A stretch of DNA of 64,000 nucleotides. Origin: Beggiatoa leptomitoformis (GTDB taxonomy: Bacteria > Pseudomonadota > Gammaproteobacteria > Beggiatoales > Beggiatoaceae). Shown here one piece after another: positions 50,874 through 59,079 of this stretch. The stretch covers positions 3,296,261-3,360,260 of the forward strand of contig NZ_CP012373.2 in assembly GCF_001305575.3 (NCBI RefSeq), given 5' to 3'. The notes beneath the pieces are model-generated. The model was not told where the DNA came from and ran no database searches. It saw nothing but the letters and a program-made list of their open reading frames with translations. Within the stretch, counting starts at the first letter, position 1; each line of letters begins with the position of its first letter. Both the position numbers and the translations under genes were made by a program.

Positions 50874-53321
50874 TTACGCGCTTTCTATTTCTATACGAAT
50901 AGATTCCCATGTTTGCATTAATTGCCATTGACCCACGGAAACAATCCGTTGTCTGGCTAATTCTAAATTATCTTTTGCATCGGTTTGGCGTTTACTGTAA
51001 TAAGCAATCCGCGCATTTAACAAAGATAAATCGGCAACATGTAACCCATTATTGAGGTGATAAATTAAACGAACAATCCGTTGATACAACTTCTCGGTTT
51101 TATTGCTCATCTCTTCAGCACTGGTTGGTAGCCGTCTTTTTCGTTGAGCATCTAATATCAAATGCGTTTGTAACAAGCGTGCTTCTACTTCATACAAACG
51201 CATGTTAGTACGATTCACAATTTCAATGGTTTCATTAATATCCTTTTGAGCGCGCAAAATATCGCCTAATTGCCGATAAATATTAGCACGTACTAACAAC
51301 GCTTCAGGCATAAATAAAAATAATTCTGTCTGGCGCATATCCTGCAACACATTATTTAAAAAAGCTAATGCATCAACAGGTTTTTGCAACGCACTTAATA
51401 TACGTCCCATACTTAAATTTGCAAACGCAACACTACTCACGCCTAATTCACTTTCAGCAAGGGTTAAAATAGTCTGCCCTCGCTGTAAAATATCTTCTCG
51501 CGCTGCGGTATCTTGCGCCATATCCAACAATAAGTTGCAATATTGCGCGCCTGCAAGCGAATACAAATAGGGATGTTGAGGCTGGTCTTCTTGCTGTATC
51601 TGCTCGGCTAACTTGAACGCACTTAAACTATATTCCAAATCCCCCAATTGATGTAAAACCGCCGCAAATTTAGCATGACTTTGCATCCGACTAGACAAAT
51701 GATGTCCTCGCTCTGCCCACTCTATCGCTTGTTGGGCAACTTCCTCTGCCTCGCACAATTTACCCAATGCCGTTAATAAATCCACCCGATTAACAATACT
51801 CAACGCAGCATTATGCCAATCTTCTTGACGTTGCTTTAACTCAGCCGCTGCTTGCAACGGTTCTAAAGCCTCCTCTAAACGTCCTAAAGCACACAATAAA
51901 AAAGCGGTTTGTGCGAACAAAAAAGCCTGCTCTTTTTCAGGCAATGTACTCTGTGGCGTTGTCCAATTTTTCTGGGGGAAAAAATGCGCTAATAATGCCA
52001 AATCCGCCGAAAACGAACCAAAAGTATTAATACTAAAATACGCATCCTCATGCAGAATGCTATCACTATAAACCAGCATTGCCGCTTGATATTCCCCCGC
52101 CATACATCCATGTGCAACCGCACGATATAACGGCTCTAAATCACCAAACGTATCAGGAACATCTTTACTCAGCGTTGTTTGAAAATATTGAAATAAAACA
52201 TGATGTGCCTGTTCCCACAAATCCAACCGTTGCGTACGTAACTGCTCCCGAAAATACGCCCGAATAACAGGATGTGTATCCCACGAATGCGTGTTATGCG
52301 TGTTATATGTGTAAAGCAAACCCACTTTTGCCAGCCGTTGTCTAATATCCTGCCACTCTTCTGCTGAACACGTTGCAACAGATTGCGCTAATTTTGCCTG
52401 CCGAAACAACACCTCATGCTCCGCCTCACTCATCGCGCGGTCAAACAAACTCAACAACTGCAAAAACACCCGTTCGGGCGCATTACTTGCCCAACAATTT
52501 TCATCATAAAAACGCAATACTCGTAAGGCTTGTCCACCCCACTCCTCATCAGCAAACAAGGCAGGCAACTGAGTTGGTGCGGTTGTTAAATCATTTGCAT
52601 ACGCATCAACCAACATTCCCCCCAATAAGCTTAATGCTAGTGCGTGTCCACCCAATAATTTAGCCAACCCAACCAGTTGCCACGTTGTTCCCTGTACGCC
52701 CAATAGTTTTAAAAAATTCGCACTTTCACCCGCATTTAAATTATCTACATTTAAATGACAAACAGATTTACTATCCCTATCTTGTAATTCAATAATAGGC
52801 TGACGAGAAGTTAATAATACTAACTGTTTTTCATCAAAAGATTGCGCTTTCAGTTCCTGCAAAAATGTCTTAAACCCCAAATCAGCACATACCCCCCCTT
52901 TTGTACTGACGGGATATTGCAAGGGTTCTATACCATCTAAAACAAGAATAAATGCCTGCTCATGTAATAACTCGACTAAACGCTTTGCTTTAGCCTCATC
53001 ATTTTGAGGTAATGCACCTTGATGACCAAAAAAAATTAAAGCCTGTTCAAAAAAAATACTAGAAGAAAACTGTGGGTAATCATTTCCTTGACCATAAAAC
53101 GACCACCCAAACACAAAACATGCCCCCTGATAATCTGGCGCAATACTTGTCAACCACTCTCTCAATACCATTGACTTACCCACACCCGCAGCCGCCGTGA
53201 TTGTAAGCACGGAAATATGCTTATTAAGGAACGCACTATCAATCTCAGTCAATAAAGTCTTACGTCCAATACAAGGATGAGAAAAAGTGGGTAAATTATC
53301 AATATTAACGGTAGGTTGCAT
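50874..53321 (-). CDS. STAND-like P-loop ATPase with C-terminal TPR array
   Basis: 815 residues. The ATPase starts almost at the N-terminus: Walker A TAAAGVGKS (Lys49, Ser50), Walker B FILVLDGIEP (Asp129), and sensor TSRQP. A winged-helix-like region and the element HPVIRAYFREQL follow. From about 450 to the end there are helix pairs of TPR type (LGRLEEALEPLQAAAEL, LGDLEYSLSAFKLAEQI). The layout is that of a STAND switch with sensor repeats, but no effector domain (TIR, nuclease, protease) is fused. The role could be signalling or defence. Confidence 0.82.
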   Translation of the reverse strand: MQPTVNIDNLPTFSHPCIGRKTLLTEIDSAFLNKHISVLTITAAAGVGKSMVLREWLTSIAPDYQGACFVFGWSFYGQGNDYPQFSSSIFFEQALIFFGHQGALPQNDEAKAKRLVELLHEQAFILVLDGIEPLQYPVSTKGGVCADLGFKTFLQELKAQSFDEKQLVLLTSRQPIIELQDRDSKSVCHLNVDNLNAGESANFLKLLGVQGTTWQLVGLAKLLGGHALALSLLGGMLVDAYANDLTTAPTQLPALFADEEWGGQALRVLRFYDENCWASNAPERVFLQLLSLFDRAMSEAEHEVLFRQAKLAQSVATCSAEEWQDIRQRLAKVGLLYTYNTHNTHSWDTHPVIRAYFREQLRTQRLDLWEQAHHVLFQYFQTTLSKDVPDTFGDLEPLYRAVAHGCMAGEYQAAMLVYSDSILHEDAYFSINTFGSFSADLALLAHFFPQKNWTTPQSTLPEKEQAFLFAQTAFLLCALGRLEEALEPLQAAAELKQRQEDWHNAALSIVNRVDLLTALGKLCEAEEVAQQAIEWAERGHHLSSRMQSHAKFAAVLHQLGDLEYSLSAFKLAEQIQQEDQPQHPYLYSLAGAQYCNLLLDMAQDTAAREDILQRGQTILTLAESELGVSSVAFANLSMGRILSALQKPVDALAFLNNVLQDMRQTELFLFMPEALLVRANIYRQLGDILRAQKDINETIEIVNRTNMRLYEVEARLLQTHLILDAQRKRRLPTSAEEMSNKTEKLYQRIVRLIYHLNNGLHVADLSLLNARIAYYSKRQTDAKDNLELARQRIVSVGQWQLMQTWESIRIEIESA

Positions 53322-54865: not shown

Positions 54866-55128
54866 GAATAATGAACTACTCCAAAAATTATTAAACAACA
54901 AATAATTAAAAATATATGCCATACGATAATATTTAACTTATAAAGCTATCTTTTGTACGCATACGAACAAATAATGGCGGAATAATCAGTGCAACACAAG
55001 AAGATTAACGTGGGAAAACGACGCAACATACCTGTTTAACCTATTTTTGAACCCTTGAAACTTTGATTTCCCTTATTTAGAAAGACTATTATGCTTAACA
55101 TTAAAATTATCATTATTGAATGTATTGC

Positions 55129-55865
55129 AGAGAACCACACATGTCACGCTATCTAAACCCCTACACAGATTTTGGCTTCAAAAAACTCTTTGGTGAAGAA
55201 GCTAACAAAGATTTACTCATAGATTTTCTAAATCAACTCCTGCCTGCCCATCACCAAATTCAAAGCCTACAATTCAAAAACACCGAAAAACTCCCCCTTT
55301 ACCCCGAAGACCGCAAAGCCTTTTTCGATATTTACTGCACCAGTCCTTCAGGAGAAAAGTTCATCGTTGAAATGCAACGTGCCCGTATGGACTTCTTCAA
55401 AGACCGCTCTTTATTCTACGTTACCTTTCCCATTCAAGAACAAGCGAAGAAAGGCGTGTGGAACTTTCAACTATCGACGGTCTATTTCATTGGTATATTA
55501 GATTGCATTATTGAAGAACCTAATGATTCAACACAATTTCGCCAAGAGGTCAGTTTAAAAGACCAAGATGGAAAAATCTTTTACGACAAACTGCATTTCT
55601 GTTTTTTACAAATGCCCTTATTCAACAAATCAGCAGATGAATTAGCCAATCATTTTGAGAAATGGGTATATTTCTTAAAGAATCTGAGTAATTTTGAAGA
55701 AATCCCGAGAATTCTAAATGAAGCGGTATTTCAAAAAGCATTTGAGATAGCAGAATTATCCAATTTAAAACCGCGTCAAGCCCAGCAATATCAAAAGAGT
55801 TTAATGAATTATTGGTCGAATAAGGCGGTATTGGATACGGCATTTGCAGAAGGGAAAGAGGAGGG
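55129..55865 (+). repeat. Tandem duplication, unit 1 (Rpn core)
   Basis: About 737 bp matching 56084-56820 at about 98% by eye (around 15 differences). The match starts at AGAGAACCACACATG and ends in the linker coding for EGKEEGL. Offset is 955 bp. Confidence 0.92.
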
Positions 55866-56058
55866 ATTAGCCGAAGGACTTGCCGAAGGAGAGGCAAAAG
55901 GTAAAGCAGAGGGATTAGCTGAAGGAGAGGCAAAAGGTAAAGCCGAAGGAGAATTAAAAGCAAAACTAACCATTGCACGACAACTCAAAGCGCAAGGTCT
56001 ATCTTTAGACGTTATCATGCAAGTCACAGGACTTTCTCAGCAACAAATTGAATCATAA
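55141..56058 (+). CDS. Rpn-family PD-(D/E)XK protein, copy 1
   Basis: 305 residues. RYLNPYTDFGFKKLFGEEAN is the typical Rpn/PDDEXK_2 start. The nuclease core has FFDIYCTSPSGEKFIVEMQ, with Asp in FFD and the E-x-Q version of the ExK motif. An Ala/Glu/Gly-rich repeated linker (36-bp unit) follows. The C-terminus is a helical module with GLSLDVIMQVTGLSQQQIE. Relatives include recombination-promoting nucleases and former transposase annotations. The start is after a weak AGAGA site. Confidence 0.88.
   Translation: MSRYLNPYTDFGFKKLFGEEANKDLLIDFLNQLLPAHHQIQSLQFKNTEKLPLYPEDRKAFFDIYCTSPSGEKFIVEMQRARMDFFKDRSLFYVTFPIQEQAKKGVWNFQLSTVYFIGILDCIIEEPNDSTQFRQEVSLKDQDGKIFYDKLHFCFLQMPLFNKSADELANHFEKWVYFLKNLSNFEEIPRILNEAVFQKAFEIAELSNLKPRQAQQYQKSLMNYWSNKAVLDTAFAEGKEEGLAEGLAEGEAKGKAEGLAEGEAKGKAEGELKAKLTIARQLKAQGLSLDVIMQVTGLSQQQIES
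55885..55943 (+). repeat. 36-bp coding tandem repeat in the Rpn linker
   Basis: GAAGGAGAGGCAAAAGGTAA and following bases recur at 55885 and 55921 (36-bp period, 12 residues of the AEGLAEGEAKGK type). Such in-frame repeats allow linker length to change by slippage or recombination. Copy 2 has a different arrangement here. Confidence 0.8.
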
Positions 56059-56083
56059 TGATGGTAACCGTACACTCAGTTTT

Positions 56084-56820
56084 AGAGAACCACACATGTC
56101 ACGCTATCTAAACCCCTACACAGATTTTGGCTTCAAAAAACTCTTTGGTGAAGAAGCTAACAAAGATTTACTCATAGATTTTCTAAATCAACTCCTGCCT
56201 GCCCATCACCAAATTCAAAGCCTACAATTCAAAAATACTGAAAAACTCCCCCTTTACCCCGAAGACCGTAAAGCCTTTTTCGATATTTACTGCACCAGTC
56301 CTTCAGGAGAAAAGTTCATCGTTGAAATGCAACGCGCCCGTATGGACTTCTTCAAAGACCGCTCCTTATTCTACGTTACCTTTCCCATTCAAGAACAAGC
56401 GAAGAAAGGCGTGTGGAACTTTCAACTATCGACGGTTTATTTCATTGGTATATTAGATTGCATTATTGAAGAACCTAATGATTCAACACAATTTCGCCAA
56501 GAGGTCAGTTTAAAAGACCAAGATGGAAAAATCTTTTACGACAAACTGCATTTCTGTTTTTTACAAATGCCCTTATTCAACAAATCGGCAGATGAATTAG
56601 CCAATCATTTTGAGAAATGGGTATATTTCCTCAAGAATCTAAGTAATTTTGAAGAAATCCCAAGAATTCTGAATGAAGCGGTATTTCAAAAAGCATTTGA
56701 GATAGCGGAATTATCCAATTTAAAACCGCGTCAAGCCCAGCAATATCAGAAGAGTTTAATGAATTATTGGTCGAATAAGGCGGTATTGGAGACGGCATTT
56801 GCAGAAGGGAAAGAGGAGGG
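56084..56820 (+). repeat. Tandem duplication, unit 2 (Rpn core)
   Basis: Second copy of the 55129-55865 unit. Nearly all differences are silent; one gives Asp to Glu near the linker. Confidence 0.92.
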
Positions 56821-57046
56821 GTTGCTTGAAGGGAAAGCGGAGGGATTAGCTGAAGGACTTGCTGAAGGGGAATTAAAAGGTAAACGGGTGGGTGAGGCTA
56901 ATTTATTATGCAAACTGTTAGAAAAACGCTTTGGAAAACTGTCTGTAACGGTACAGGAGAAAATCATACATGCTTCTTTGCAACAACTGGAAATTTGGAC
57001 AGATAAGTTGTTAGATATACAAAAACCAGATGATTTATTTAAATAA
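56096..57046 (+). CDS. Rpn-family PD-(D/E)XK protein, copy 2 with a different C-terminus
   Basis: 316 residues. The first about 235 residues equal copy 1 except one Asp/Glu change, so the nuclease core is the same. After the EGKEEG linker the protein differs: ANLLCKLLEKRFGKLS, then LEIWTDKLLDIQKPDDLF, resembling the DUF4351 tail of other Rpn proteins. It starts 37 bp after copy 1. Two core-identical proteins with different tails suggests module exchange at the repeated linker. Confidence 0.88.
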   Translation: MSRYLNPYTDFGFKKLFGEEANKDLLIDFLNQLLPAHHQIQSLQFKNTEKLPLYPEDRKAFFDIYCTSPSGEKFIVEMQRARMDFFKDRSLFYVTFPIQEQAKKGVWNFQLSTVYFIGILDCIIEEPNDSTQFRQEVSLKDQDGKIFYDKLHFCFLQMPLFNKSADELANHFEKWVYFLKNLSNFEEIPRILNEAVFQKAFEIAELSNLKPRQAQQYQKSLMNYWSNKAVLETAFAEGKEEGLLEGKAEGLAEGLAEGELKGKRVGEANLLCKLLEKRFGKLSVTVQEKIIHASLQQLEIWTDKLLDIQKPDDLFK

Positions 57047-57134
57047 TTTTAAATTAACTTATTAGCTCTCTTTACTGTAGCTACTACCGCAAAGAAAGCC
57101 AGTATTATCGCGTTCGTCACACGCTCCAATAACA

Positions 57135-57686
57135 CTAATGAATTAATCCTGCTACATACTGCACAACAATCTCGCGCGGTGTGCCATAGGGCATTAGACG
57201 CACTAATTTACCTGTTGAATCAATAATAAACAATTGACTAGCATGTTCTACGCTATAACCTTGCTCAGTTTTGGGTAAATAACGAAAACTTGTGCCGTAT
57301 TGTTTACAAACATTGCGTATTTCTGCCACTGAACCGCGTAACCCCACAAAATTAGGGCTGAAATATTGTAAATATGTTTTTAACTTCTCGGCGGTATCGC
57401 GCTCAGGGTCAACCGTGATAAATAATACGGTCACTTTATCCCGTTGTGTAGCAGGCAATGCGTTAATGACTTGTTTTAATTCTGTAAGTGTTGTGGGACA
57501 AATATCAGGGCAAGATAAAAAACCAAACGTTAATAAAACGACTTGTCCCGCATAGTCCTGCAATGCAACGGATTTACCTTCAGTATTGGTTAAACTAAAA
57601 TTCCCACCCAATGGTGCAGCCGTAACAAAAATACTTTGTAAACAAAAATATAAAAAACACCATCGATAAAAAATAAAGTGTTGCAT
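57135..57686 (-). CDS. SCO1/SenC-family copper chaperone
   Basis: 183 residues from the ATG at 57686 (GAGGA 8 bp upstream), with a hydrophobic N-terminal anchor or signal (5-23). Thioredoxin-like fold with the copper site SCPDICP (Cys59, Cys63) and His148 in SVEHASQ. SCO proteins deliver copper to the CuA centre of cytochrome oxidase or act in thiol redox. No oxidase subunit is adjacent. Longer in-frame starts were rejected. Confidence 0.92.
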   Translation of the reverse strand: MQHFIFYRWCFLYFCLQSIFVTAAPLGGNFSLTNTEGKSVALQDYAGQVVLLTFGFLSCPDICPTTLTELKQVINALPATQRDKVTVLFITVDPERDTAEKLKTYLQYFSPNFVGLRGSVAEIRNVCKQYGTSFRYLPKTEQGYSVEHASQLFIIDSTGKLVRLMPYGTPREIVVQYVAGLIH

Positions 57687-58987: not shown

Positions 58988-59079
58988 TGTCTGAATCAGA
59001 ATTTTCAGAATTAATAGGATTAAAGACAAGAAAATGATGGTTTTTAATCCTGAGAATTCAGTGAATTTTGATTCAGACA
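58988..59079. repeat. CTGAATCAG-type inverted repeat, copy B
   Basis: TGTCTGAATCAGAATTTTCA on the left and its near complement on the right, 92 bp overall; AGGATTAAAG and TTTAATCCT also pair. It fills the gap between two convergent stop codons, so it may act as a terminator for both. Confidence 0.88.

Follow-up and report, generated by a model that had tools for sequence, protein, structure and literature searches.

The window, that is, the whole stretch of DNA that was analysed, comprises 64,000 nt (3296261–3360260) of a one-contig genome of 4,265,317 bases. Two Rpn genes lie head to tail on its forward strand: A1 (55141..56058, 305 aa), with a PF12784 core, a linker of four-residue repeats and an RpnS-type tail, and A2 (56096..57046, 316 aa), with an A1-like core and a DUF4351 tail. 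The 5′ edge of the duplicated unit is a 12-base leader, AGAGAACCACAC (55129..55140), which abuts the A1 start codon and recurs at 56084–56095 ahead of the A2 ATG; the repeat units begin at 55129 and 56084, with a spacing of 955. The PD-(D/E)XK core (codons 1–232) occupies 55141..55836 in A1, where it is assigned by profile match and catalytic residues, and 56096..56791 in A2, where it differs by one amino acid. The linker follows at 55837..55960 in A1 (12-base, that is 4-residue, repeats, predicted to form a portion of one long helix) and at 56792..56879 in A2 (4-residue repeats), and the tail at 55961..56055 in A1 and 56880..57043 in A2. Between the genes lies a 37-base spacer (56059..56095), the final 12 of which make up the second copy of the leader. 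In an ungapped comparison the units share 722 of 737 bases, and 14 of the 15 differences are silent, the remaining one being Asp232Glu. Fourteen of codons 1–232 differ; in 13 of them the change is silent, codon 179 having two altered bases, and the fourteenth is codon 232, with its Asp to Glu change. These figures agree with the initial annotation, which had described head-to-tail units about 98% identical over about 737 bp, some 14 of 15 differences being synonymous, with a single Asp to Glu replacement, now placed at codon 232, and unrelated C-terminal modules, of the GLSLDVIMQVTGLS type in A1 and DUF4351 in A2.

A second pair, B1 (3383304–3384221) and B2 (3384259–3385128), both with RpnS tails, lies 32 kb from A1/A2, and the 37-base spacer is identical in the two pairs. 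Judged from their profile matches, the A1 and A2 cores belong to the Rpn family, scoring above both curated cut-offs, that of PF12784 (218.4 and 218 bits, respectively; cut-off 27.4; E about 2e-64) and that of TIGR01784 (111.7 and 89.6 bits; cut-off 52.1). Named records having the A/B-type core include Thioploca and Thiomargarita. By the NG86 method, A1 and A2 differ over 232 codons by a dS of 0.105 and a dN of 0.0036; the path through codon 179 contributes one of the two nonsynonymous counts. Among the cores of A1, A2, B1 and B2, 28 of 696 sites are variable and the amino acid changes at codon 232 only; pairwise dS ranges from 0.088 to 0.140 and dN from 0 to 0.0036, the nonzero dN values including the codon 179 path. 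All four cores are under strong purifying selection, and the earlier proposal that both copies are maintained under selection is borne out by this dN/dS comparison. Residues D10, D63, E77 and Q79 are invariant in an alignment of 45 sequences. In residue type and order they correspond to D11, D63, E82 and Q84, the catalytic residues of RpnA given in PMC5350276, the mapping being by order and spacing rather than by alignment.

A scan of 54900–57300 found seven promoters, as against 6.0 expected, and zero terminator-like sites. PADLOC gave no match among the four neighbouring proteins examined; a match of A1 itself to a 'putative invertase' (E 3.6e-4) was discounted, since it lies on the repeat linker (residues 227–288). 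A viral collection yielded one partial match. On the reverse strand, at 50874–53321, lies a gene whose 815-aa product has TPR repeats and, close to its N-terminal end, a P-loop-like AAAGVGKS; this product has no PADLOC match and is possibly a STAND-type protein. An intergenic 40-base inverted repeat, with arms 80% complementary and 12 bases apart, is found at 58988–59079. The segment 47874–54871 is syntenic but inverted in G001, a genome of the same genus (2433846–2426425), and the synteny ends directly before the rpn pair.

The two tails are of different classes. A profile built from 17 A1-type tails finds the structure of the E. coli RpnA-S antitoxin, 7TH0, as its first match (E=1.7e-8), as against E=0.17 for the A1 tail sequence alone. 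In the second-look list of structural matches, 7TH0 is also the top match of the A1 AlphaFold model (mean pLDDT 81), with 1.3 Å over 46 residues and a Z of 7.1, a value below 8 and by itself weak for helical folds; the matches that follow, at Z 4.6, include the putative Trp repressors 3kor and 3frw. By profile and predicted fold, the A1 tail has the RpnS antitoxin fold, a three-helix bundle. The A2 tail matches DUF4351 (PF14261, E=1.5e-10). The model of A2 (mean pLDDT 73) predicts a long helix, residues 211–279, which leads out of the core into the tail and is followed by three short helices; the long helix predicted for A1 spans residues 211–284. For the tail of the A2 model only generic helical matches were obtained, with 7TH0 absent among the matches listed, and two weak matches of the DUF4351 profile in the PDB (E 0.0016 and 0.91) were taken as chance. 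Comparing the DUF4351 and RpnS-type profiles with hhalign gives a probability of 32%, too low to establish homology, so that an equal function of the two tails would rest on their equal position.

The mismatches between A1 and A2 start within the linker, where the two genes differ in their repeats (about nine in A1 and about six in A2, by manual count of the translations). In the comparison of A2 with B2, the match persists to GAATTAAAAG (56870–56879) and only then switches, which places the tail switch at the end of the linker, at about 55961 in A1 and 56880 in A2. The initial annotation had regarded the linker repeat as the site at which tails are exchanged; the border does lie at the linker, but the switch is at its end. 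It had also set against such exchange the case of both tails on unrelated cores with no breakpoint at the linker. DUF4351 tails do occur in this genome on unrelated-looking Rpn cores as well, linker breakpoints nonetheless being present. Recombination of cores and tails with a border at the linker is supported, and is best seen in core families D and E/F of the same genome.

A1/A2 arose by tandem duplication. The genome also contains a related gene, C1 (4076073–4077014), with an RpnS tail and 88% core identity; an RpnS tail is likewise found in G025, on a core 80% identical. G001 has two single genes with cores 86% identical, both DUF4351-tailed, and it is to these tails, borne on the same core type, that the A2 tail is closest (58–66% identity). 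Sequence comparison thus identifies A2 as a chimera, in which an A/B-type core and linker are joined to a DUF4351 tail from a lineage found in the sister species. The core tree groups A/B with the G001 genes (support 89/88 for protein and 60/33 for DNA); in topology tests the alternatives were not rejected (p-AU 0.40 and 0.19), and either tail may have come first in the lineage. The same-genus rpn loci have no flanks in common with the rpn locus of the window. Among the best 80 of 550 GTDB core loci, the only DUF4351-like tails seen with a local profile were those of L176 (Methylococcaceae) and, weakly, L246; with the Pfam DUF4351 profile L176 scores 24.5 bits (cut-off 25) and L246 gives no match.

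In a survey of ORFs of at least 240 aa with tail-like patterns, from loci chosen for carrying rpn genes, 132 within-genome pairs in 23 groups had cores at least 97% identical; 24 of these pairs, in seven groups, have tails at most 65% identical, pairs within one group not being independent. One pair of G019 (436816/434902), counted as discordant at 64%, is an artefact: the tail is the same with a longer C-terminal end, and the comparison used the last 36 residues. Three core families swap tails in the window's genome, namely A/B, D (five units, 3583758–3589823) and E/F (3107521–3110012 together with 2482988–2484632), so that the swap, which the initial annotation described for the A1/A2 pair, is not a property of that pair alone. 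Synonymous divergence (pS) of cores and tails was compared by Fisher tests in all 32 pairs of five groups, from rounded counts. In the 18 discordant pairs of these three families (tails ≤65%), core pS is 0.059–0.179 and tail pS 0.28–0.72, the tail values being rough since divergent tails align poorly; the excess in the tail is significant at p<0.01 in 15 pairs and at p<0.05 in 17. Where the tails are more than 65% identical, seven of eight pairs have no contrast and one reaches p<0.05 (E1–F2, tails 69%). The higher synonymous divergence of the tails means that, in this genome, the history of the tails is separate from that of the cores. Positive selection alone, speeding the change of tails, was rejected here, as synonymous sites jump as well. 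It stays possible for the loci of an uncultured Methylomonas (CAKZJE) and a Planctomycetaceae (JAIRPZ), where none of five discordant pairs has the contrast because silent sites of the cores are already diverged (pS 0.29–0.48). In G001, eleven near-identical genes (55 pairs) include no discordant tail. Tail exchange is therefore demonstrated for the window's genome only.

Stand-alone tail ORFs of both classes lie downstream of full-length genes. One is located behind C1 (4075814–4076083), one of 70 aa behind a full-length gene of G025, and two 93-aa DUF4351 frames behind the gene at 1442181–1443167; in the database scans they occur in four of 81 loci (L177, L188, L192 and L206). A candidate in G011 (C73:41885–42193) was excluded, since its frame goes on into part of a core where the contig ends. 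These ORFs fit the published separate rpnS genes, which in some species carry a DUF4351 annotation (PMC10327210). At L040 (3417241–3419004), an Rpn-like full-length gene (3417976–3419004) is followed by two head-to-tail DUF4351 ORFs of 126 and 113 aa with an identical 22-base upstream sequence. At L034 (3930212–3933007), an Rpn gene of another family lies beside separate C-terminal (3931283–3931939) and N-terminal (3932633–3933007) pieces, about 690 bases apart, as though one gene had been interrupted. As to internal starts, Met222 is a candidate in A1 (55804..55806), where it would yield an RpnS-like protein from a weak Shine–Dalgarno (SD) sequence, and, by sequence, in A2 (56759..56761). Its SD energy is −2.4 kcal in the window, +0.6 in the same-genus copies and −0.4 in C1, so the SD is not kept in relatives. 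TTG243 in A2 (56822), B1 and B2 has an SD of −7.9 kcal, within the purine-rich repeats, and is absent from A1. In the SD scan of A1, A2, B1, B2, C1 and the same-genus copies, a clear internal start yielding RpnS was not evident.

Several of these features recall known systems. The label 'promotes recombination', which the initial annotation had adopted for Rpn proteins, derives from an over-expression study (PMC5350276), whereas the later work describes Rpn as toxin–antitoxin phage defence (PMC10327210). In E. coli, RpnL is a toxic endonuclease blocked by RpnS through complex formation, one additional four-residue repeat in RpnC abolished cross-inhibition, and RpnP2 restricts several T-even phages (PMC10327210). 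Like A1/A2, E. coli RpnA–E and RpnP2 combine a PD-(D/E)XK core, a four-residue-repeat helix and a small C-terminal module, and occur in tandem arrays with stand-alone tail genes (PMC10327210). In contrast to them, the near-identical cores of A1 and A2 bear tails of two domain classes and belong to PF12784 rather than PF04754, to which the E. coli proteins are assigned (PMC5350276), and the two genes have no clear internal start. The two G001 genes and the Methylococcaceae protein L176 have the core and tail class of A2, but no mixed pair like A1/A2 was seen among them. CDI/Rhs polymorphic toxins also join a constant part to exchangeable C-terminal tips, with orphan tails downstream. There, however, it is the toxin that is exchanged, while A1/A2 keep the nuclease constant and change the presumed inhibitor.

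We consider it rather probable that A1 and A2 are tandem-duplicated RpnL/RpnS nucleases with recombining cores, whose tails would give self-specific inhibition and thereby insulated pairs acting against phage. Recombination would keep the two cores near-identical, while the C-terminal modules differ from the point where the repeat helix ends. In its full length, each protein (RpnL) would act as a DNA endonuclease restrained by its own tail module, and the inhibitor (RpnS) would be that tail, produced either as a small protein of its own or from a stand-alone gene. A differently tailed copy would then escape the inhibitor of the other, resulting in two insulated toxin–antitoxin pairs. Given the dependence on repeat number in RpnC, A1 and A2 should have been mutually insulated already before their tail classes came to differ (about nine versus about six repeats). 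Nuclease activity, the antitoxin role of the tails, insulation and phage defence are ascribed to these genes by analogy with the E. coli family, and that DUF4351 would do the job of RpnS is the least certain element. Less probably, recombination may drive a wider system in this lineage, in which several loci would share one selected nuclease core and trade, at the border of the repeat helix, inhibitor cassettes belonging to two or more unrelated classes, the RpnS bundle and DUF4351 among them, thereby generating new mutually immune anti-phage pairs. The Rpn nuclease, suspected of starting repeat changes and duplications by the authors of PMC10327210, may in that case itself initiate the exchange.

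Alternatively, conversion may act passively on the cores, old tails staying put where homology ends, and the diversity of tails would be a by-product with no insulation. This would account for the nearly star-like relationship of the four A/B cores (28 variable sites, few shared splits), and conversion tracts would stop at the linker, as observed. It is rather unlikely, though, in view of identical tails at separate places, which imply that whole units or tails move: the tails of D2 and D5 are identical although D3 and D4 intervene, and those of E3 and F1 are identical about 626 kb apart, with cores differing at about 12 synonymous sites. An ordinary tandem duplication followed by one chance replacement of a tail, with no functional meaning, would be in keeping with tandem rpn arrays being known (PMC10327210) and frequent in the loci examined here, with 16 of 23 groups lacking any discordant tail, and with the tail class changing only in A2: tails at most 30% identical occur in three of 132 pairs, those of A2 with A1, B1 and B2. 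This explanation is made unlikely by the purifying selection that acts on both cores (dS about 0.1) and by the same decoupling in two further families of the genome.

The initial annotation had suggested a two-specificity nuclease pair, with the tails as modules for DNA target or partner specificity. A role of the tail in DNA sequence preference has been proposed (PMC5350276), and the likeness of the A1 tail model to putative Trp repressors (3kor and 3frw, Z 4.6) points the same way. RpnA is, however, described as a nonspecific endonuclease, and RpnA-S is a dimerizing antitoxin (PMC10327210); the tails are better read as oligomerization/antitoxin modules of the RpnS kind, as homology shows for the A1 tail only, and the specificity proposal appears improbable. 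An assembly error, to which near-identical tandem copies are prone and which was named at the outset as a possible refutation, is hardly credible for two copies with 15 differing sites and distinct tails, in a one-contig genome with a second, diverged pair bearing the same spacer 32 kb away.

The family, its arrays and its variable tails have been described (PMC10327210); what is new here is the replacement of the tail class on one core. In the texts examined on Rpn/recombination-promoting nucleases and DUF4351, we found no report that core and tail histories are separate, or that one core carries tails of different classes. Earlier publications emphasize variation in repeat number, whereas here whole tails are replaced on constant cores, once by another domain class. 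A1 and A2 thus offer a natural matched pair for asking whether DUF4351 is a second class of antitoxin and whether the tails alone set toxin–antitoxin specificity. The exchange of tails suggests that the bacterium swaps the very part that is thought to restrain the nuclease.
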